Assembly (NCBI GenBank): GCA_944326115.1
Contig: CALVCQ010000001.1
Coordinates: forward strand, 1 to 64,000
Source: Candidatus Gastranaerophilales bacterium
GTDB taxonomy: Bacteria > Cyanobacteriota > Vampirovibrionia > Gastranaerophilales > Gastranaerophilaceae
DNA length: 64,000 bases
Reading direction: 5' to 3'
The position numbers and the translations under genes were made by a program. The notes under the pieces were generated by a model, which was not told the DNA's origin, made no database searches, and was given only the letters and a program-made list of their open reading frames with translations. Shown piece after piece: positions 1 to 13,829 of this stretch; position 1 is the stretch's first letter; every line of letters begins with the position of its first letter.

Positions 1-144
1 TTGTCAGAAAGCGATGAGCAAAAGGTAAAAGACATAAGACAAGAAATCACAAGATTAGACAAGATGACGGACAAAACTAATGAATATATAAAAACGGAAG
101 AAGATGTTTCGACATATTGGTATTTCGAAAATCATCTTCCTTAA
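1..144 (+). CDS. C-terminal end of an unidentified protein (partial)
   Basis: An open frame runs in from the left edge and stops at TAA 142-144, giving 47 visible residues that end in YWYFENHLP. The visible part is charged and helical (KDIRQEITRLDKMTDKTNEYI), so it looks like the tail of a coiled-coil or helical protein. The gene start lies outside the window and no family can be named. A strong hairpin with a T-run follows 11 bases after the stop, which supports a real gene end here. The next gene is convergent. Confidence 0.5.
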   Translation: MSESDEQKVKDIRQEITRLDKMTDKTNEYIKTEEDVSTYWYFENHLP

Positions 145-1318: not shown

Positions 1319-3226
1319 TTATTGCTCCTTTATTTTTAATTTTACTAAAAATCTATTTGGTCCAATTGATGCACTTTCAAAATTTTCAAGGGGTTTATCT
1401 GTACGCATCAAAATAGTTGTATGAAATTTTTCAGAAGCAAGTTCTGCAAAACTTTTAAAATGAGCAATTGTTATTAAATCTTTTTTTGTTTTACTTGTTA
1501 AAAGCTTATCCAAATTGTGAACCTCAACAATTGTTCTTTTCCCTGTTTTTTGATATTCAAGCTCTGAAGCTTTGAGAATCTTTTTCAAGTCAAACACAGC
1601 TTTTAACATATCCGTATTTCCATTTTCAAGGAAATCATATTCTTTATAATTTACATCGAGAGATTTTCTTATGGAATCAGCTATAATTCTTGTTTTTTCT
1701 GCAGGTCCATATAACAATATACCGTTGCCATCCGGACCAAATGCATGTAAACCTGCTTTTTCAGTCACAAATGAATTTACATATTCTTGAATAAATTGAT
1801 TTTTATCTATATAACTAAAATCACATTGGTCTATTTTTTCAATAGTTTCTTTATACAATTTACCAAATTCAAACCCTTTAATAAATTTAATACTTATAGT
1901 ATCGTTGTTCTTCAGGCTGTTCAACACCTCATTTTGTTTTTCATTTTTTATTATCAACCTTAGATTAGAACCTTCTATACTGTTTTTTATAATTTCTTTA
2001 AATTTAATAAAATCTTCAGAATCTTTTTCTGTTTTTGAAACTAAATCTTCTAAACCATCTAAATAAAAATATGTATATTTGTTTTCTCTGTTATATAAGT
2101 CTTTTGCCTTAGGCAGCTCAGCAAGAATTTCTTCATTTAATTTTGCAAAGCCTTCTTTGTTTGCATCTATATTAACAAACTTGTCATCAACAATTGTTTG
2201 TAATTTCTCCAAAAATTGATTTGCAGTTTTTGATGTGACATTGTCAAAGAATAATATATCAGATTTATCTATTTTCCAGGCAAAATGGCTCAATGTTTGA
2301 ACTATGCTATCATCTAAATAGTCAGATAAAGATTCCATTATTTTATCGTGCTTAATACTTTCAATATCCGATTGAAGTCTGCTAAAATCTGCCAAATCAC
2401 CGGATAAATCAATTGTTTTAATTTCATCTGTAAAAATCAGTTTCATATGTTGTAAGGATTCAAGTTCTTTATTTTTGCCATTAGTAACATAAATCAATCG
2501 ATTGTTGGTATTAGACGCAATAAGTTCTCTGAATTTGTTCAAATATTCTTCATTATTGGGTTTGCTCAAATCGTTTAATAAAGTATCGATATTTTCAATA
2601 TTCAAGAAGGTATATTGCTTATTATTTTTGTAATTTTCTTTTGCACTTTGGGAAATTTTTGTTAATGTTCCAAAAAATTCATCCATAAACCCATTAGTGT
2701 ATTTTGTAGAGGAATATGCTGTTTTATATTTACCGGACAATATTTGTGTAATATTTTTAGCTTTTTCAGACGGTATGTTTTCTAAATTTATCAGCGGCGG
2801 CAAATCAGGTACATTGTTCAACCTTAATTCTTTTAACTTAAAAAGATATTCCAAAGGTAGAATATCCTGCTTTTTATTAACCAGAGCTTTTACAAATTCT
2901 GATTTATCAAGAGGAAGTTTTTTTATTCTGTTTTGCCAGCTCATTTTTAATTCTTCAGGCAGTCTTTTTATAAATTTATCTATTCTTTCAAGTGAATAGT
3001 TATTTTCCGAAGCAATCTTTCCCCTTTTTAGAGAATTATAAACAAGCAATGCTCCTGAACCAAGCACAGCCAAACCGCCTAATGCTAACAATAATTTATG
3101 AGAATCACGGTTTTTCTCAGCTTTTGGTGTTGTCACTGAACGGTTAGTATTTGTTTGTACGGTATTTTTCTTAGTAGAAGATGTTACAATAGGTTGTTGC
3201 TTTAAATCCTGAAAACTTATAGTCAT
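1319..3226 (-). CDS. Membrane-anchored protein with repeated, degenerate AAA-like modules
   Basis: A 635-residue protein, first gene of a two-gene operon (SD GGAG six bases before ATG). Residues 44-63 form one hydrophobic helix, so the long C-terminal part is tethered to a membrane. Three segments share one pattern, a beta strand plus acidic turn followed by a helix and a second strand: KQYTFLNIENIDTLL (203-217), NKYTYFYLDGLEDLV (382-396) and KRTIVEVHNLDKLL (563-576). These look like the Walker B-to-sensor-1 half of an AAA domain. P-loop-like strands precede the last two (ILFFDNVTSKT at 324-334, ILLYGPAEKTR at 503-513), but neither keeps the GK[ST] core. It probably cannot bind ATP and may be a scaffold for the downstream ATPase. 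No named family recognised. Confidence 0.75.
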   Translation of the reverse strand: MTISFQDLKQQPIVTSSTKKNTVQTNTNRSVTTPKAEKNRDSHKLLLALGGLAVLGSGALLVYNSLKRGKIASENNYSLERIDKFIKRLPEELKMSWQNRIKKLPLDKSEFVKALVNKKQDILPLEYLFKLKELRLNNVPDLPPLINLENIPSEKAKNITQILSGKYKTAYSSTKYTNGFMDEFFGTLTKISQSAKENYKNNKQYTFLNIENIDTLLNDLSKPNNEEYLNKFRELIASNTNNRLIYVTNGKNKELESLQHMKLIFTDEIKTIDLSGDLADFSRLQSDIESIKHDKIMESLSDYLDDSIVQTLSHFAWKIDKSDILFFDNVTSKTANQFLEKLQTIVDDKFVNIDANKEGFAKLNEEILAELPKAKDLYNRENKYTYFYLDGLEDLVSKTEKDSEDFIKFKEIIKNSIEGSNLRLIIKNEKQNEVLNSLKNNDTISIKFIKGFEFGKLYKETIEKIDQCDFSYIDKNQFIQEYVNSFVTEKAGLHAFGPDGNGILLYGPAEKTRIIADSIRKSLDVNYKEYDFLENGNTDMLKAVFDLKKILKASELEYQKTGKRTIVEVHNLDKLLTSKTKKDLITIAHFKSFAELASEKFHTTILMRTDKPLENFESASIGPNRFLVKLKIKEQ

Positions 3227-3482
3227 GTGCTACTCCAATATGTTGCTATATAAATTTTAAGTCTAAACATACATTTTTTTGTCAATAAAAATGTATTTGT
3301 TTTACAAAAATATAAATGGTTTTGGCGATAATAGAAAATATACATTTTACTGTTGAACAATATTATTTTTTAGCTCCAAGACAGGCATTATTAATCAATA
3401 CTTTTATATGAAATCCAAAAACAGAATATAAATGCGTTGGTACATAGAAATTTTGATACAATGACAAAAATAGTAGACTTAA

Positions 3483-3602
3483 AAAATAGATACGCCTGCT
3501 CTTAAAATAGCAACAGTACCACTGACAAGATTAAAACATCACGAAAATCCCGAAATAGCTAAAAAAGCAAATGAAACATTGAAAATTATCTTTAACAAAT
3601 AA
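3483..3602 (+). pseudogene. C-terminal remnant of a helical protein
   Basis: Between in-frame stops at 3480-3482 and 3600-3602 lies a fragment reading TPALKIATVPLTRLKHHENP and then EIAKKANETLKIIFNK. Its composition is protein-like and unlike the noise around it, but it has no start codon or ribosome binding site. It looks like the surviving tail of a gene whose 5' part was deleted. The family is not identified. Confidence 0.35.
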
Positions 3603-3754
3603 TAAAATTTTGGCAATTTTATCTATTAAAATTATTACAATAATTAAATATTTGCAAAAAATAATTATAATTAGAAATATATAACCCGAAGATATTATAT
3701 TTGTGAAATTCTTCACGCATTTTTGTGAAATATTTTTCTTATTTTTTAACTTTT

Positions 3755-3792
3755 TGCTCAAACTATCTGCAACTTATGCTCAAACTATCTGA
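3755..3792. repeat. Direct repeat of 15 bases
   Basis: TGCTCAAACTATCTG occurs at 3755-3769 and again at 3778-3792, a 23-base period. It lies near the remnant at 3483-3602 and could mark a past slippage or deletion junction. No function can be assigned. Confidence 0.6.
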
Positions 3793-3960
3793 ATGGTTAC
3801 AGAAATACGCACTGTTTTTGAGTTGTACGGATAATTTGATTATTTCGGAATAGTCCGGTTCCGCAAATTTTCAAAAAAATTTAAAACAAAGTCGGAAAAT
3901 TTTTCAACGGTCGGGATTTTTTTACACAAGCAAATTTCATAGTCCAATTTGAGTATTTTA

Positions 3961-4455
3961 CTAATCATAGTAAACCAGTCCGCCACCCTTATTTTTATCG
4001 ATTAATGTAAAGTGACCACAGATTTTATTTTCTCCAGAACGGACTATTTTCCCTGGTCCCATTAATGCATGATTGCGACTATCAAACTCCCCTGAATTTG
4101 ATAAGCTTAAATCTACTTTCATTCCTATACCTGGTTTATTCGTTACGGATTTTATTCCGTCTTCACAACATAATACTAAAACAGGTTCATTTTTAGGAAG
4201 CTTTAAATTATTAATAAAATCATATATTTCAATAACTTTGCCATCTTTTACGCTTGTCCCGCTCATTTGCCAACCTCTAGGAGTTAATGAGGAACCTACA
4301 CCGTGCCCTATAAGAATGTGTTTAATTTCTTTTGGAAAAGTTCCATCCGAAACAGATTCCATTATCCTTATTACGGAAGAAGAAAATGCTCCTTCTGCAC
4401 TATTGTACTTTAAAGTACAGTTTGTTACACTAATAATAAAAAGTCGGTTGGGCAT
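3961..4455 (-). CDS. Hypothetical protein, possible caspase/CHAT-like His-Cys fold
   Basis: A 164-residue protein without signal peptide or membrane helix. A hydrophobic strand ending in a His-Gly pair (KHILIGHG, His51) is followed about 45 residues later by a strand ending in Cys-Cys-Glu (PVLVLCCEDG, Cys96-Cys97). That order and spacing resemble the His-Gly and Cys motifs of clan CD peptidases (caspase and CHAT families), which are used in signalling and defence. This is fold-level inference only. No Shine-Dalgarno precedes the ATG; the start sits inside a perfect palindrome and an in-frame TAG lies just upstream, so this is the only ATG start possible there. Long non-coding flanks suggest a standalone accessory gene. 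Confidence 0.55.
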   Translation of the reverse strand: MPNRLFIISVTNCTLKYNSAEGAFSSSVIRIMESVSDGTFPKEIKHILIGHGVGSSLTPRGWQMSGTSVKDGKVIEIYDFINNLKLPKNEPVLVLCCEDGIKSVTNKPGIGMKVDLSLSNSGEFDSRNHALMGPGKIVRSGENKICGHFTLIDKNKGGGLVYYD

Positions 4456-4466
4456 ACATGCCCAAC
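4447..4466. repeat. Perfect palindrome over a start codon
   Basis: GTTGGGCAT and its exact complement ATGCCCAAC are separated by two bases. The ATG of the leftward gene at 3961-4455 lies in the left arm, so the palindrome could be an operator or an mRNA hairpin that hides the start. Related GTTGGG/CCAACC sequence recurs near 4630-4652. Confidence 0.6.
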
Positions 4467-4976
4467 AACACTAAATATTAGCCGTCGGAAGCTGTATGAT
4501 ATTGTTTTCTTAAACTGGCTTAAATCGGACTTTATTAGGACATAAAATTACAAAGAATATTTTAAATCAAACTGAAAACTTTCAAAATCAAAGAAAATTT
4601 CGAGTCCAATTAATGTCCTATTAATCGTTGTTGGGTTGAAAGACCAACCTCTGTACTATGGATGTTTGTTTTTTATAATTACGGCAAAATATATTCAGCA
4701 TCTACACTTATCAAGATATTTGTTCAATATTGTAATACTCAGACTCTATGTCAAAAATAATCAAACTGACTGTTTATTTATACTCAAAACGTCCCACCCT
4801 ATCCGTATAAAAAGAGGTTGACTTTTGCCAAACAACATTTTTGAACTATTGTGGATATACTTGTAGTTTAACGGTACACTTCAGAAAGCCCAACCTGCAA
4901 GATTTTACATCTTTTTGTTTTTTGGGCATATTAATTTTTTAAGAATAAATTTTCCAAAGCAAACAATAAAATAAAA

Positions 4977-5092
4977 TGTCATCCCGAATTTATTTCGGGA
5001 TCTTACCGGTTGGAAACAGAAACTTTAAGTTGGTTAGATTCTGCACTTCTTAAGAACAGGCTCACACAAAATTTTTAAGATCCTGAAACACC
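4977..5092. repeat. Dispersed inverted-repeat element, degraded copy
   Basis: The left end reads TGTCATCCCGAA, an A/T spacer, then TTTCGGGATCTTACC, a self-complementary end. The far end carries AAGATCCTGAAACA, complementary to it in part. A better copy of the same design lies at 50130-50242 (TGTCACCCTGAAC...TTTCAGGGTTTTACC). The shared order and spacing mark both as members of one non-coding, MITE-like family. The right boundary here is uncertain. Confidence 0.5.
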
Positions 5093-5207
5093 GGGCAGGG
5101 GTATAAAATCATGCTTCGTCATTCAGCTCAACGGATTTTGCAGCCAGTTCCGCAGGACAGTTATGTTTTTTCTGATGTAATATATTTTTGTTTAAAAAGT
5201 AATGTAA

Positions 5208-5227
5208 GTCGGATTTACTAATCCGAC
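5208..5227. other. Hairpin downstream of kdsC
   Basis: GTCGGATT and AATCCGAC form a perfect eight-base stem with loop TACT. It lies about 75 bases past the leftward kdsC stop and has no T-run on that strand, so it is at most a weak terminator or processing site. Confidence 0.35.
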
Positions 5228-5301
5228 AAATTTATATATAGAAAACAGTTTAGTTTTTATAACTATTGTTACAAATAAAAGAGTTTCATTATTTGTTAAA
5301 A

Positions 5302-5841
5302 TCATTCTCTGTTAACAATAGAATCGACAATATCTTGATACTTTCCTGTTGCTTTAAGAATAAAATCACACATTTCTCTTACGGCACCTTTTCCGCCGTT
5401 TTTTGAAGAAATAAAAAGCGAATGTGTTTTAACTTCTTCAACAGCATCATTAGGGCAGCATGGCAGACCTACTGTCTTTAATACACAAATATCAGGTAAA
5501 TCATCACCCATGTACGCAATTTCATCAGGTTTTAAGCTAAATTCTGACATAAAGTCTTTTAATGAAGCTATTTTGTTTTTACTGCCTTCATATAATTTTG
5601 TCATACAAAGATTTTTGAATCTGCAGCGAACAGTTCCGTTTTCTCTGGCTGTAATTATGGCGGTAACAAATCCGGATTTGCCTGCCATTATCACGCCCTG
5701 ACCGTCTTTTGCGTTAAAAGTTTTATATTCGACTCCGTTTTCATCAAAAGTTAATGATGCATCTGTCATTACGCCGTCAACATCAAAGACCAGCGCTTTT
5801 ACTTTGCTTGCTCTGTATTTTAAATCTATATCGCTGTTCAT
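5302..5841 (-). CDS. kdsC: 3-deoxy-D-manno-octulosonate 8-phosphate phosphatase
   Basis: This HAD-family phosphatase removes phosphate from KDO-8-phosphate to give KDO for lipopolysaccharide. The 179 residues match the small, cap-less KdsC type. The nucleophile motif is DVDGVMTD near residues 20-27 and the metal-binding motif is MGDDLPD near residues 116-122. The KNGGKGAVRE stretch near the C terminus is also typical. Its ATG overlaps the stop of kdsD by one base (TAATG), so translation is coupled. Linkage to kdsD makes the assignment specific rather than a generic HAD phosphatase. It implies a KDO-containing outer envelope. Confidence 0.92.
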   Translation of the reverse strand: MNSDIDLKYRASKVKALVFDVDGVMTDASLTFDENGVEYKTFNAKDGQGVIMAGKSGFVTAIITARENGTVRCRFKNLCMTKLYEGSKNKIASLKDFMSEFSLKPDEIAYMGDDLPDICVLKTVGLPCCPNDAVEEVKTHSLFISSKNGGKGAVREMCDFILKATGKYQDIVDSIVNRE

Positions 5842-9881: not shown

Positions 9882-10322
9882 TGACTGTGAGCCGTATAAT
9901 GACAACATGAAATCATCTGAAAATTGTATTTAAAACATTATCTCTATATGCTAAACTTTATCTGGTTCTTATTTTTTTAACACATGTAAAAATAATGAAG
10001 AATTGTATTCAAAAAAATTCGTGATAAGACTCTGCAGAACAAAATAATCCGGTGAATTGTTTTGTGCGAGGTAAATGACGTGAACGAATTTTTTGACAAA
10101 GTGAACACACACAACAAAGTTAGCAGTTGCGAACCTGTTTTAGAAACTTAACAAAATTAAATGTAAGTGAATGTCCTTTGATGATTTTTTTGCAAAGACA
10201 CGTTGCACTGAATCAAAGCCCTTTTACAAAACTTGATATAGTCAACTTTCGTCGGGCAGAGAAGCAAAATAATCAAATCTGAACAGGTTTGGCTGTGACA
10301 CCGGCTTAAATTTAATGTAATT
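9882..10322. other. Intergenic region between nanK and the phospholipid operon
   Basis: About 440 bases without a gene. It includes one copy of the variable-hairpin repeat (10014-10066). A TTGACA at 10093-10098 has no matching -10 box at normal spacing. No clear Shine-Dalgarno precedes the next ATG at 10323. Confidence 0.5.
10014..10066 (+). repeat. Variable-hairpin intergenic repeat, copy 1
   Basis: The head AAAATTCGTGATAAGACT continues as CTGC and is followed by a hairpin, ACAAAATAAT against ATTGTTTTGT. The same head recurs at 23161 (plus) and 26669 (minus), each followed by a hairpin of different sequence. The position just after nanK suggests a role as transcript end or mRNA stabiliser. 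Confidence 0.65.
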
Positions 10323-13300
10323 ATGGAAGCAATAAAAGATATTTTTAACAAGAATTTTATCAATTTATTTTTAGGTCAGTTGCTCACCCATCTGGGTGAT
10401 GCCGCTATACAGATAATACTGATGGCAATACTGGTAAACAGTGTAGATAAGCCGGGCAGTTTAATAGCTCTTATGCTGTTTTGTTTTGTATTTCCTTCCT
10501 TGATTGTCAGTATCTTTGCAGGAAGTGTTGTAGACCGTTTTTCCCGTAAAAAAATAATGATATACAGTTCATTGTACAGAGGGTTGGTTCTTGCTCTGTC
10601 AATCGGTCTTTACTTAAATTTTGCTGGTAATGCTTCTCTTGTACCAATGATAAAAATATACGGTATAGTGCTGAGTCTTTTAATCGGGACAGGTACAGCT
10701 TTTTTATATCCTGCAAAAATGGCTTCGGTGCCTAATGTCGTAGATGTACAGGGATTAAAAGCAGCAAACTCTCTTATATCAGGCTCCGGAACATGGGCGT
10801 TAACATTCGGAGCACTGGTTGCTAGCACGCTACTTTTGCATATCGGCATACTGAATATGTTTTATATGTGTTGTGCTATGTATTTTGCAGCACCTGTATT
10901 TTTATACTTTGTCAATTTAAGATATGATGAGGAGTCTAATTCATCCAGTTTTGACTTAATGAAAGATATAAAACAAACAGCAGCTTTTCTTGATAAACAC
11001 AAAAAAGCGCTTAATATGATTTTGCTGGCTGTTGTTGTTTCATTGATTTCCGTTACTTTCTATAATGCAATGAATACGCTTGCAACTGACGTTTATCAGG
11101 TAAGTGTGCAAGGTTTAGCCAGACTGAAATGGATGCTCGGCTGCGGTACATTTTACGGCGCATGTGTAATGATGTTGTTCGGACAACGTCTCAAGACTAC
11201 AAAAACACTTGTAACCGCATTTTTGGGGTTATTTGTATTTCTTGTTACAGCTGCTTTTTGTACAACATTTTTTAAGGCAAGAATTTGGCTCGGTGCAATA
11301 GGGCTTTGTGCTTCAGTGTTAAAAATTACTGTTGATACAATATTGCAAAAAGTTTCGCCTAACTTTATAAGAGGTAAAATTTTTGCATTTGCATCTATGC
11401 TGGAAACATTTGTATCGTTGGTCGGCATAGGGTTTGTTTCCGTGTGTGCTGATATTATACAGCCTCTTGCTATATTCCATGGAATTGCAATTCTTTCGGC
11501 TGTAATGGTTGTTTTACTGCTTGCTTTAAACAAAGATTTCAGATATTTTGTGCTAAGAATCACATTGGGACAGATATTCAAATGTTTGTTTAATTATAAA
11601 TTTGAAGGCGTTGATAATATTCCCAAAAAAGGTAAAATCATACTCGCTGGCAATCACACAGGACATTTAGATCCGTTTATTCTGCAAATGGCAACAAAAC
11701 GCAATCTGTGGTTTGTTACGGGACCTGCTGCTTTTAAAATTCCTGTTATCAGACACATGCTCAAATGGTTTAATGTACTGCCTTTGAATTTTGGTGCAGG
11801 AATAGAGGCAATTGAAGCAGGCGTAAATAAACTAATGCACGGTGAAGCAGTTATTATATTTCCGGAAGGCAAATTTACGGCAGACGGTACTCCATGTAAA
11901 TTTCACAGGGGGGCATCTGTTATGGCAAAAGAGGCAAATTGTCCTATTGTACCGTTTGCAATAAAAGGCGGTTTTGAAGCCTGGGGAAAAATTCGAAAAA
12001 ATCCAAAATTATTTACAACAATAATTATCCAGTTTGGTCAACCGATTACTGATTTGTCAGGCACTGACAAAGAAATAACAAAAGAACTTGAACAGCGTGT
12101 CAGATTTATGAAAAATTCTCTGGAATGCAGAGCATTTTATAAAATTAAAGATACTGAGTATACAAATTTCCTCGATATAATGAAACAATACAGTGATACT
12201 TACGGACAGACAAAAGCGGTATCCCTTAAGGTTAAAGACGGATATGAGGAGATAAGCTATATAGACTTAAAGCGACGTGCTAAAAAATTTGCCAATTATA
12301 TGATGGAAAATGCAGATGTTCAAAGAGGCGACAGAATTGCAATGCTTTGCGAATCACGTCCCGAGTTTGCGGTAGGTATATTTGCTTCTATCCAAACAGG
12401 TGCAATAACCGTTCCTCTTGATATAAAATTAACAGTTCCCGAGCATACGCATATACTGTCTGACTGTACCCCAAAAATTCTTCTTTGCTCAAGTCATTAT
12501 CTTGATCATGCTTTAGAACTTAAAAATAATGTTCCATCGATTCAGCAGATTTACGTTCTCGACGATGAAGAAAGACAACATCCGGAAATACTCTCTGTAT
12601 CAAAACTTGATGCTGATGTTGAAAAAAGTTTCAAGCGGGCACGTTCTATGGATGAAACAGCTCTTATTGTTTATACATCAGGGACAACAGGCAACCCTAA
12701 AGGTGTAATGATAAGTTTTGGCAATATCTATTCTCAGATGAAGGATTTTGAAAAAATATTTAAGCTCTCAAAAGATAATACTCTTCTGTCTATTTTACCG
12801 TTAAACCATCTTCTTGAACTTAACGTCGGTTTCTTTGGAATGTTGTTTATGGGCGCTAAAATTGTTTACATAAAAACTCTGAACCCGAAAGAGCTTTCTG
12901 CCGCTATGAAGGACAAACAAATTACAAACATGATAGTTGTTCCTCTTGTGGCTAAAATGCTGAAAAACAGTGTTGATAAGCAGTTAAAAAAGAAACCTGA
13001 ACATGTACAAAAGATGTTTAAACTAATGTATGCTGCAGCAAAATATATGCCGAGATTCGTCAGAAGAATTATGTTTAAATCAATTATAGACGGCTTTGGC
13101 GGCAAATTTGAATGTTTTATATCAGGCGGTGCGCCTCTTGATGCTGAAATAGCGGAATTCTTTGAAAGAATAGGTGTTCCTGCTTTTGAAGGATACGGAT
13201 TGACAGAAACCAGTCCGGTAATATCCACAAACCGCTATGAAGCTCACAAAATCGGAACTGTTGGCAAACCGCTTCCTTCCGTTACGGTAAAATTGTCAGA

Positions 13301-13829
13301 ACAGGGAGAGCTGCTTGTGACGGGACCAAACGTTATGCAGGGCTACTATAACAAGCCCGAAATGACCGCCGAAGTTATTGACGAGGACGGCTGGTTCCAC
13401 ACTGGCGATATCGGAGAAATCGACAAAGACGGATTTATAAAAATTACCGGAAGAATTAAAAACATGATTGTTTTGGGCGGCGGCAAAAAAATCTTCCCCG
13501 AAGAAGTGGAAGCAGTCCTTGAACAGTCACCTTTAATAAAAGAACTTTGCGTTCTTTCTTTAAAGATAAAATCCGGAAATAAAGCGGGTACGGAAGAAGT
13601 TGGAGTAATTATTGTTCCGTCTGATGAGCTTGCGCAAAAGCCGGATGAGGAGATACAAAAAGAACTCGAAGCCGAGGTTAAAAAACTTTCGTCAGCAAAC
13701 CTTGCCTCTTATAAGACACCTACGGTAGTAGTATTTAGAAGAGAAGATTTGCCGAAAACCTCTACACAAAAGGTTAAAAGAAAAGACCTGCTTGCATGGT
13801 ATGAAGGTTTGCAGGCAGAAAAGGTGTAA
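10323..13829 (+). CDS. aas: Fused lysophospholipid transporter, acyltransferase and acyl-ACP synthetase
   Basis: A 1168-residue three-part protein for uptake and reacylation of lysophospholipids at the inner membrane. Residues 1-405 are a 12-helix MFS transporter of LplT type. Residues about 425-605 are a PlsC-type acyltransferase with NHTGHLD (444-450, the HX4D motif) and FPEGK (513-517). Residues about 620-1160 are an AMP-forming acyl synthetase with YTSGTTGNPKG (784-794), GYGLTET (957-963), WFHTGDIGEID and GGGKKIFPEEVE. In E. coli, LplT and Aas are separate proteins; the triple fusion is known in other bacteria. It heads an operon with a WG-repeat protein, cdsA and plsC. There is no obvious Shine-Dalgarno before the ATG. 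Confidence 0.92.
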   Translation: MEAIKDIFNKNFINLFLGQLLTHLGDAAIQIILMAILVNSVDKPGSLIALMLFCFVFPSLIVSIFAGSVVDRFSRKKIMIYSSLYRGLVLALSIGLYLNFAGNASLVPMIKIYGIVLSLLIGTGTAFLYPAKMASVPNVVDVQGLKAANSLISGSGTWALTFGALVASTLLLHIGILNMFYMCCAMYFAAPVFLYFVNLRYDEESNSSSFDLMKDIKQTAAFLDKHKKALNMILLAVVVSLISVTFYNAMNTLATDVYQVSVQGLARLKWMLGCGTFYGACVMMLFGQRLKTTKTLVTAFLGLFVFLVTAAFCTTFFKARIWLGAIGLCASVLKITVDTILQKVSPNFIRGKIFAFASMLETFVSLVGIGFVSVCADIIQPLAIFHGIAILSAVMVVLLLALNKDFRYFVLRITLGQIFKCLFNYKFEGVDNIPKKGKIILAGNHTGHLDPFILQMATKRNLWFVTGPAAFKIPVIRHMLKWFNVLPLNFGAGIEAIEAGVNKLMHGEAVIIFPEGKFTADGTPCKFHRGASVMAKEANCPIVPFAIKGGFEAWGKIRKNPKLFTTIIIQFGQPITDLSGTDKEITKELEQRVRFMKNSLECRAFYKIKDTEYTNFLDIMKQYSDTYGQTKAVSLKVKDGYEEISYIDLKRRAKKFANYMMENADVQRGDRIAMLCESRPEFAVGIFASIQTGAITVPLDIKLTVPEHTHILSDCTPKILLCSSHYLDHALELKNNVPSIQQIYVLDDEERQHPEILSVSKLDADVEKSFKRARSMDETALIVYTSGTTGNPKGVMISFGNIYSQMKDFEKIFKLSKDNTLLSILPLNHLLELNVGFFGMLFMGAKIVYIKTLNPKELSAAMKDKQITNMIVVPLVAKMLKNSVDKQLKKKPEHVQKMFKLMYAAAKYMPRFVRRIMFKSIIDGFGGKFECFISGGAPLDAEIAEFFERIGVPAFEGYGLTETSPVISTNRYEAHKIGTVGKPLPSVTVKLSEQGELLVTGPNVMQGYYNKPEMTAEVIDEDGWFHTGDIGEIDKDGFIKITGRIKNMIVLGGGKKIFPEEVEAVLEQSPLIKELCVLSLKIKSGNKAGTEEVGVIIVPSDELAQKPDEEIQKELEAEVKKLSSANLASYKTPTVVVFRREDLPKTSTQKVKRKDLLAWYEGLQAEKV

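Follow-up and report, generated by a model that had tools for sequence, protein, structure and literature searches.

A predicted membrane-anchored chain of three AAA-like modules encoded beside an AAA protein without an arginine finger in Candidatus Gastranaerophilales

The DNA analysed here (the window) covers the initial 64 kb of a contig from a 2.15 Mb genome; close to its start it encodes two adjoining proteins, P (635 aa) and D (380 aa), which we think are probably partners of an unusual kind: P would be a membrane-anchored activator that completes the ATP site of D in trans. The folds, the complementary motifs, the linkage of the genes, the concerted evolution of the finger segment and the purifying selection were established by computation, and physical contact between D and P, catalysis in trans and membrane insertion are inferences only. 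What gives the arrangement its meaning is an active partner without an arginine finger together with pseudo-AAA partners that keep one.

Architecture of P and D

Both open reading frames were confirmed on the minus strand, with D one base downstream of P. Among public sequences, the named relatives of D come from Candidatus Gastranaerophilales MAGs. The features of the locus are as follows (a dot denotes no strand).

1-144, plus: second pseudo-AAA gene, convergent and truncated by the contig end; final 47 codons plus stop (translation matches the L040 C terminus)
164-184, dot: palindrome with T-runs on either side, terminator-like, between D and the convergent gene (consensus scan; 2 found, 1.2 expected)
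175-1317, minus: D, active AAA protein of 380 aa; disordered N terminus, helical region 46-121, large domain about 126-285, lid 290-357 (Pfam, AlphaFold2)
463-501, minus: D segment at the classical AAA arginine-finger site, NDILAQTNFKVPV, Arg-free (alignment to p97 LRRFGRF)
520-522, minus: D sensor-1 Asn266, invariant among the actives of alignment A3
625-642, minus: D Walker B IIVVNE, residues 226-231, with Glu231 retained and Asn in place of Asp
787-810, minus: D Walker A GPSNNGKT, residues 170-177
1319-3226, minus: P, chain of three pseudo-AAA modules with a predicted N-terminal membrane anchor (ORF, profiles, AlphaFold2)
1334-1471, minus: P residues 586-631, in concerted evolution with the convergent pseudo-AAA of the same cluster (identity comparison)
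1334-1723, minus: P module 3 (residues 502-631), AAA-like core without lid that superposes on p97 D1 (HMM, AlphaFold2, structure match)
1352-1354, minus: P Arg625 (GPNRF) at the arginine-finger position, invariant among the P-type and convergent pseudo-AAA rows of alignment A2
1454-1456, minus: P Lys591 in helix alpha3, kept in 53/58 pseudo-AAA proteins (alignment)
1877-2257, minus: P module 2 (residues 324-450), AAA-like core; Walker motifs and finger Arg absent (HMM, alignment, AlphaFold2)
2435-2794, minus: P module 1 (residues 145-264), AAA-like core; Walker motifs and finger Arg absent (HMM, alignment, AlphaFold2)
3026-3106, minus: predicted membrane helix of P, residues 41-67 (hydropathy plus an AlphaFold2 helix of low pLDDT)
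3227-3589, dot: upstream DNA common to other genomes; homology ends at 3589 in L060 and L041 and at 3342 in L040

In locus L040, positions 9902-10939 hold an intact 345-aa pseudo-AAA gene, convergent to D, that matches the translation of window 1-144. A promoter scan gave results at chance level.

The sequence-only reading had described P as one pattern repeated three times, and this was upheld by an HMM trained without any P sequence, on 17 AAA domains with Walker A taken from the window's D and related loci. The HMM matched P residues 470-635 (E 1.5e-15), 115-300 (5.6e-8) and 300-470 (6.8e-8), and the best of 800 composition shuffles reached 1e-4. In profile-profile comparisons against the 17-domain set, modules 3, 1 and 2 of the P family gave E values of 2e-12, 9e-7 and 6e-10. 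Direct comparison of module profiles with one another was weaker, and the self-comparison that had been proposed as a check succeeded only in part: modules 1 and 3 matched at 86% probability, modules 2 and 3 at 29% and modules 1 and 2 at 8%. As the last two values are too weak, direct self-similarity was rejected as proof of the repeat, which is instead demonstrated by the AAA profile that all three modules share. Searches with P gave no significant match in Pfam, NCBIfam, PADLOC or PHROGs, nor did its profile give one among PDB sequences; a pseudo-AAA relative in L062 exceeds the Pfam AAA cutoff.

The AlphaFold2 model of P was made with nine sequences, only 4 of which cover modules 1 and 2. 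It gives the same order of elements with five strands, b1-a1-b2-a2-b3-a-a3-b4-a4-b5, in all three modules (145-264, 324-450 and 502-631) and in D (165-284), so that the AAA-like alpha/beta cores whose absence would have refuted the sequence-only reading are predicted in each P module and in D. Block pLDDT is mostly 70-85 in the module cores, and the modules are placed relative to one another without confidence (pTM 0.32). The predicted module 3 superposes on p97 D1 with Z 15.4 over 157 residues at 2.9 A. P-loop-like strands lacking GK[ST] had been noted before two of the repeats; Walker A is indeed absent, but a strand at the P-loop position is predicted in all three modules rather than two. 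A hydrophobic helix is predicted in P and its relatives and in 19/58 pseudo-AAA proteins. Judged by profiles and models, P contains three AAA-like modules.

D was expected to carry a real Walker A, and it does (GPSNNGKT), with a match to Pfam AAA (PF00004) at E 1.4e-9 and 39 bits (cutoff 21.2). Walker B Glu231, sensor-1 Asn266 and, from the model, the helical lid are kept as well. The motifs are conserved across alignment A3, and actives of the window's type retain Walker A, the Walker B Glu and sensor 1. The AlphaFold2 model (pLDDT 80.8) consists of a large domain plus the lid, and the closest of the structural matches listed is archaeal Vps4/CdvC (4lcb, Z 20.5 over 236 residues). By sequence, the nearest PDB profiles are those of p97/Cdc48/VAT/AFG2, the p97 profile giving E 1e-49, and in PHROGs D matches a phage clamp loader at 8.7e-9. 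In the alignment, the arginine finger of the second region of homology is absent from D and from its 11-row clade. D is thus, as far as its sequence and model tell, a complete classical AAA domain plus lid, minus the finger Arg.

Finger arginine, gene linkage and concerted evolution

Finger residues were counted in an alignment of 129 domains from 62 sequence stretches, with redundancy removed at 70% and unrelated AAA proteins left out of the finger-column counts. Arg occupies the finger column in 54/58 pseudo-AAA proteins, which are without Walker A/B, versus 10/41 small actives (Fisher 7e-13, relatedness uncorrected). The structural alignment ends by pairing P 635 with p97 372, which, provided that there is no gap over the final ten residues, puts R625 on R362, an arginine finger of p97 D1. 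On the tree of the actives, the finger-Arg state needs about 7 changes, at least 3 of them forced by well-supported branches, and two clades are uniformly Arg-free, that of the window's D (11 rows) and another (14 rows). Roughly one small active in four, in clades other than these, carries its own Arg although its pseudo partner keeps one too. Because of these, complementarity is confined to certain clades, including the window's, and the pairing may have arisen ancestrally for a reason other than trans activation. Within the window's clade the active and pseudo subunits are complementary, as read from their aligned motifs. In one case only (L204), DD replaces DE in Walker B of the active and Asn replaces the finger Arg in its pseudo partner; the two halves of this putative ATP site are altered together.

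A pseudo-AAA gene lies no more than three genes from the active in 52/59 small actives. When only loci with over 4 kb on both sides were considered, this rose to 36/37, and the lone exception, L182, is a match that contains stop codons. The linkage that was to be sought in related genomes is therefore conserved. Together with the profiles and the predicted structures, it supports the earlier suggestion of a membrane-anchored pseudo-AAA chain coupled to a Walker-A-bearing AAA. Note that neither the linkage nor the motif counts are phylogenetically independent.

The finger segment of P (residues 586-631) is 74% identical between pseudo partners within a cluster, compared with 50% between clusters and 48% between P orthologues. 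The corresponding values for the remainder of module 3 are 41%, 32% and 36%. Only four independent clusters, each with a P-type and a single-module pseudo-AAA protein, were available for this comparison; all four within-cluster identities exceed the highest between-cluster identity. As the finger segments match within clusters, both pseudo partners seem to have been fitted to one D through the finger face. The sequence-only reading did not extend to the missing finger of D, the Arg and Lys of module 3, the third gene, the limits of the family, the concerted evolution or the recent transfer described below.

Proposed activation in trans, its rivals and known systems

In the proposed mechanism P and D would belong as subunits to one heteromeric AAA ATPase associated with the membrane. 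D would bind ATP by means of Walker A, Glu231, Asn266 and the lid, without an arginine finger of its own, whereas neither P module 3 nor the lone module of the convergent protein would bind ATP in the usual way; these would instead present Arg625, and probably also Lys591, to the nucleotide of D. The ATP site would be complete only at the interface between D and a pseudo-AAA module and would be fixed at the membrane by the N-terminal helix of P, with modules 1 and 2 perhaps acting as nucleotide-free spacers or scaffold. Trans activation has points against it, namely the Arg-bearing actives of other clades, the Asn of D at the Walker B Asp position, and the presence of P without D in G116.

P might instead be a decaying gene, an inactive duplicate devoid of function, but this we find hardly credible. 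Walker motifs are found in none of its three modules and the finger Arg is missing from modules 1 and 2, for which the term "decayed" used in the sequence-only reading can be retained. It does not suit module 3, which keeps an invariant Lys (K591) and Arg (R625). Moreover, P is under purifying selection as estimated from its orthologues (dN/dS 0.22-0.36 overall, with too few changes in short segments to read), its frames remain open at 624-661 aa across several genera, and it has been transferred recently between genera as an intact unit. A functional P could also be a membrane-bound scaffold or substrate adaptor, the modules of which dock onto a homo-oligomer of D that hydrolyses ATP by other means, such as Lys in place of Arg. 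Two of the three P modules do lack the Arg, and close to the finger region D has a Lys (NFK282), a residue frequent at a nearby column of the actives. That Lys, however, lies outside the finger column and gives way to other residues in other actives, few residues of the pseudo family are kept as well as the Arg, and it is the finger face that shows concerted evolution. We consider an adaptor role quite unlikely.

A more specific form of the trans-activation explanation, and not its opposite, is a mixed ring in which the three modules of P would fill three neighbouring positions of a hexamer as a covalent half-ring and D would fill the others. The single chain of P does hold three modules in tandem that are alike in size, and the clusters L043 and L184 encode one active plus three separate pseudo-AAA proteins. 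Yet the module count is not constant, being two in L063 and three in L061, L042, L193 and the window, the P modules are without the lids that help classical AAA rings to close, and AlphaFold2 gives no confident placing of the modules. The mixed ring remains possible, though rather doubtful. A D-P heterodimer would fit as well.

The closest likeness to activation of D by P is found in the animal TorsinA-LAP1/LULL1 systems, where an active protein without a finger is paired with a membrane-anchored partner that lacks Walker A and the lid and has a conserved finger Arg (PMC4358337, PMC4999309). Torsin is an AAA+ protein without an arginine finger, and LAP1 has an AAA+-like fold in which Walker A is absent, Walker B is altered and the C-terminal domain is absent; Arg563 of LAP1 is strictly conserved and its mutation lowers ATPase activity (PMC4358337). 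A later structure casts doubt on a torsin-LAP1 heterohexameric ring and suggests a heterodimer, and torsin is grouped with HslU, ClpX and Lon (PMC4999309). D and P meet the torsin/LAP1 criterion of a finger-less active and a pseudo-AAA with a conserved Arg. They differ in that D is of the classical p97/Vps4 type whereas torsin belongs to the HCLR clade, in that P has three modules with the Arg in the last only, and in being bacterial and operon-encoded, the torsin system residing in the ER and nuclear envelope. The Pfam search of D and P, read up to E 1, showed neither the Torsin nor the LAP1 family; they were likewise not among the 50 structural matches listed for D or P module 3, which is uninformative either way. 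Since the tests made gave no LAP1 homology and D is near p97/Vps4, we read the resemblance as convergence: by sequence and prediction P resembles LAP1 in its features, and by this analogy the logic would be shared but not the homology.

Trans arginine fingers from a membrane-anchored pseudo-ATPase have been studied chiefly in torsins, the assembly state of which is still disputed. A diverse bacterial family with both Arg-free and Arg-bearing active clades would let comparison address two matters, whether such assemblies are rings or dimers and how pseudo-ATPase activators evolved. We offer only tentatively, and would not expect to see fully borne out, the broader possibility that a torsin-like switch arose independently in bacteria: an ATP-dead AAA chain bound to the membrane would both position and ignite a soluble AAA motor, and in the P-type one such chain would take up several adjacent subunit places in a mixed ring that has a single catalytic finger.

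Other AAA assemblies share parts of this arrangement. In clamp loaders (DnaX with delta'; RFC with RFC5) a neighbour's site receives its arginine from an AAA+ subunit that is itself ATP-dead, as proposed for P, but these are soluble pentamers with a collar domain and the best PDB matches of D, by sequence and structure, are p97, VAT, AFG2 and Vps4. On unsystematic inspection, genes for a collar domain, a clamp or primer-template partners were not noticed beside the cluster. Archaeal Vps4/CdvC and p97/Cdc48 resemble D in their AAA domain and lid; they have their own arginine fingers and form homomeric rings, in contrast to D, which is Arg-free and lies beside pseudo-AAA partners. Pex1/Pex6 and Ycf2-FtsHi are likewise membrane-associated heteromeric AAA assemblies with partly inactive domains, and the Ycf2-FtsHi structure 8xkv is among the structural matches listed for P module 3. 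Their subunits, however, are full-length homologues with lids and further domains, and neither contains a lone pseudo-AAA chain.

Distribution, transfer and neighbouring genes

With a threshold of E 1e-30, actives of the family were found in 60/241 genomes and 20/50 genera of Gastranaerophilales, and in the phylum sample they occurred solely in that order. On present sequences this is a new accessory family, limited to Gastranaerophilales as far as sampled. We found no literature on the family in Gastranaerophilales/Melainabacteria, which does not prove that none exists; the present account interprets for the first time, at the level of mechanism, a multi-gene accessory system of gut bacteria that have not been cultured. 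Two other readings, a known defence system and a phage or viral origin, were considered and rejected. PADLOC gave D only generic AAA matches (TRIP13, mad8 and IetA) rather than a known defence system, with one weak restriction-enzyme match for a 97-aa cluster protein, and among viral contigs there were 8 distant AAA loci, with no partner proteins recognised in PHROGs.

The P-D DNA is 93-95% identical to copies elsewhere, including those of other genera (G033 and G116), whereas the adjoining core genes kdsD/kdsC are 74% and 70% identical to those of G033 and G116 and mostly 75-80% identical within the genus. This difference indicates that the P-D unit was transferred recently. The kdsD/kdsC flanks were found in genus mates, but 3589-5302 was unmatched there and no clean empty insertion site could be read. 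In G116 (L041 10400-12319) P is intact and D was not found, the homology to the window ending inside the start of D.

Clusters of the window's type also encode the 97-aa protein mentioned above and proteins of 98-117 aa (with hydrophobic segments), 321-377 aa (without significant Pfam match) and 598-653 aa. Fusions occur too: L062 joins the 377-aa protein to a pseudo-AAA, and L048 joins D to a 693-aa region that is a relative of a separate 630-aa protein of L045. Many clusters share a protein of about 390-450 aa, which also occurs next to larger active AAA proteins (700-850 aa) of a second kind. In a second cluster type (L174, L176, L177, L185, L188, L191 and L205) such a 700-850-aa active and a protein of about 390-440 aa are convergent to an active/pseudo-AAA pair, and most have in addition a small 121-126-aa protein. 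L047 carries tandem 480-aa pseudo-AAA genes (10815-12257 and 12270-13712) with identical N termini and profile scores, either a recent duplication or an assembly artefact.

The anchor segment of P (window 2939-3157, residues 24-96), LLLALGGLAVLGSGALLVYNSLKRGK, is met again elsewhere in the order, in proteins that are in other respects unrelated (L059 6996-8027; L023; L037), as if it were an exchangeable anchor. A motif like (I/L/V)SF(K/G/Q) occurs within the first 70 residues of 44/111 family proteins versus 4/111 in the next stretch, and in 74/488 versus 14/488 of other ORFs. It is carried by the N termini of the window's P and D and by proteins of L040, L042, L058 and many other loci, and is possibly a sorting signal widely used in Gastranaerophilales. 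Beside the window-type cluster of L040, positions 2036-3937 encode a 4-alpha-glucanotransferase-like protein (partial match to Pfam GH77) with an N-terminal ISFK and a C-terminal hydrophobic segment.
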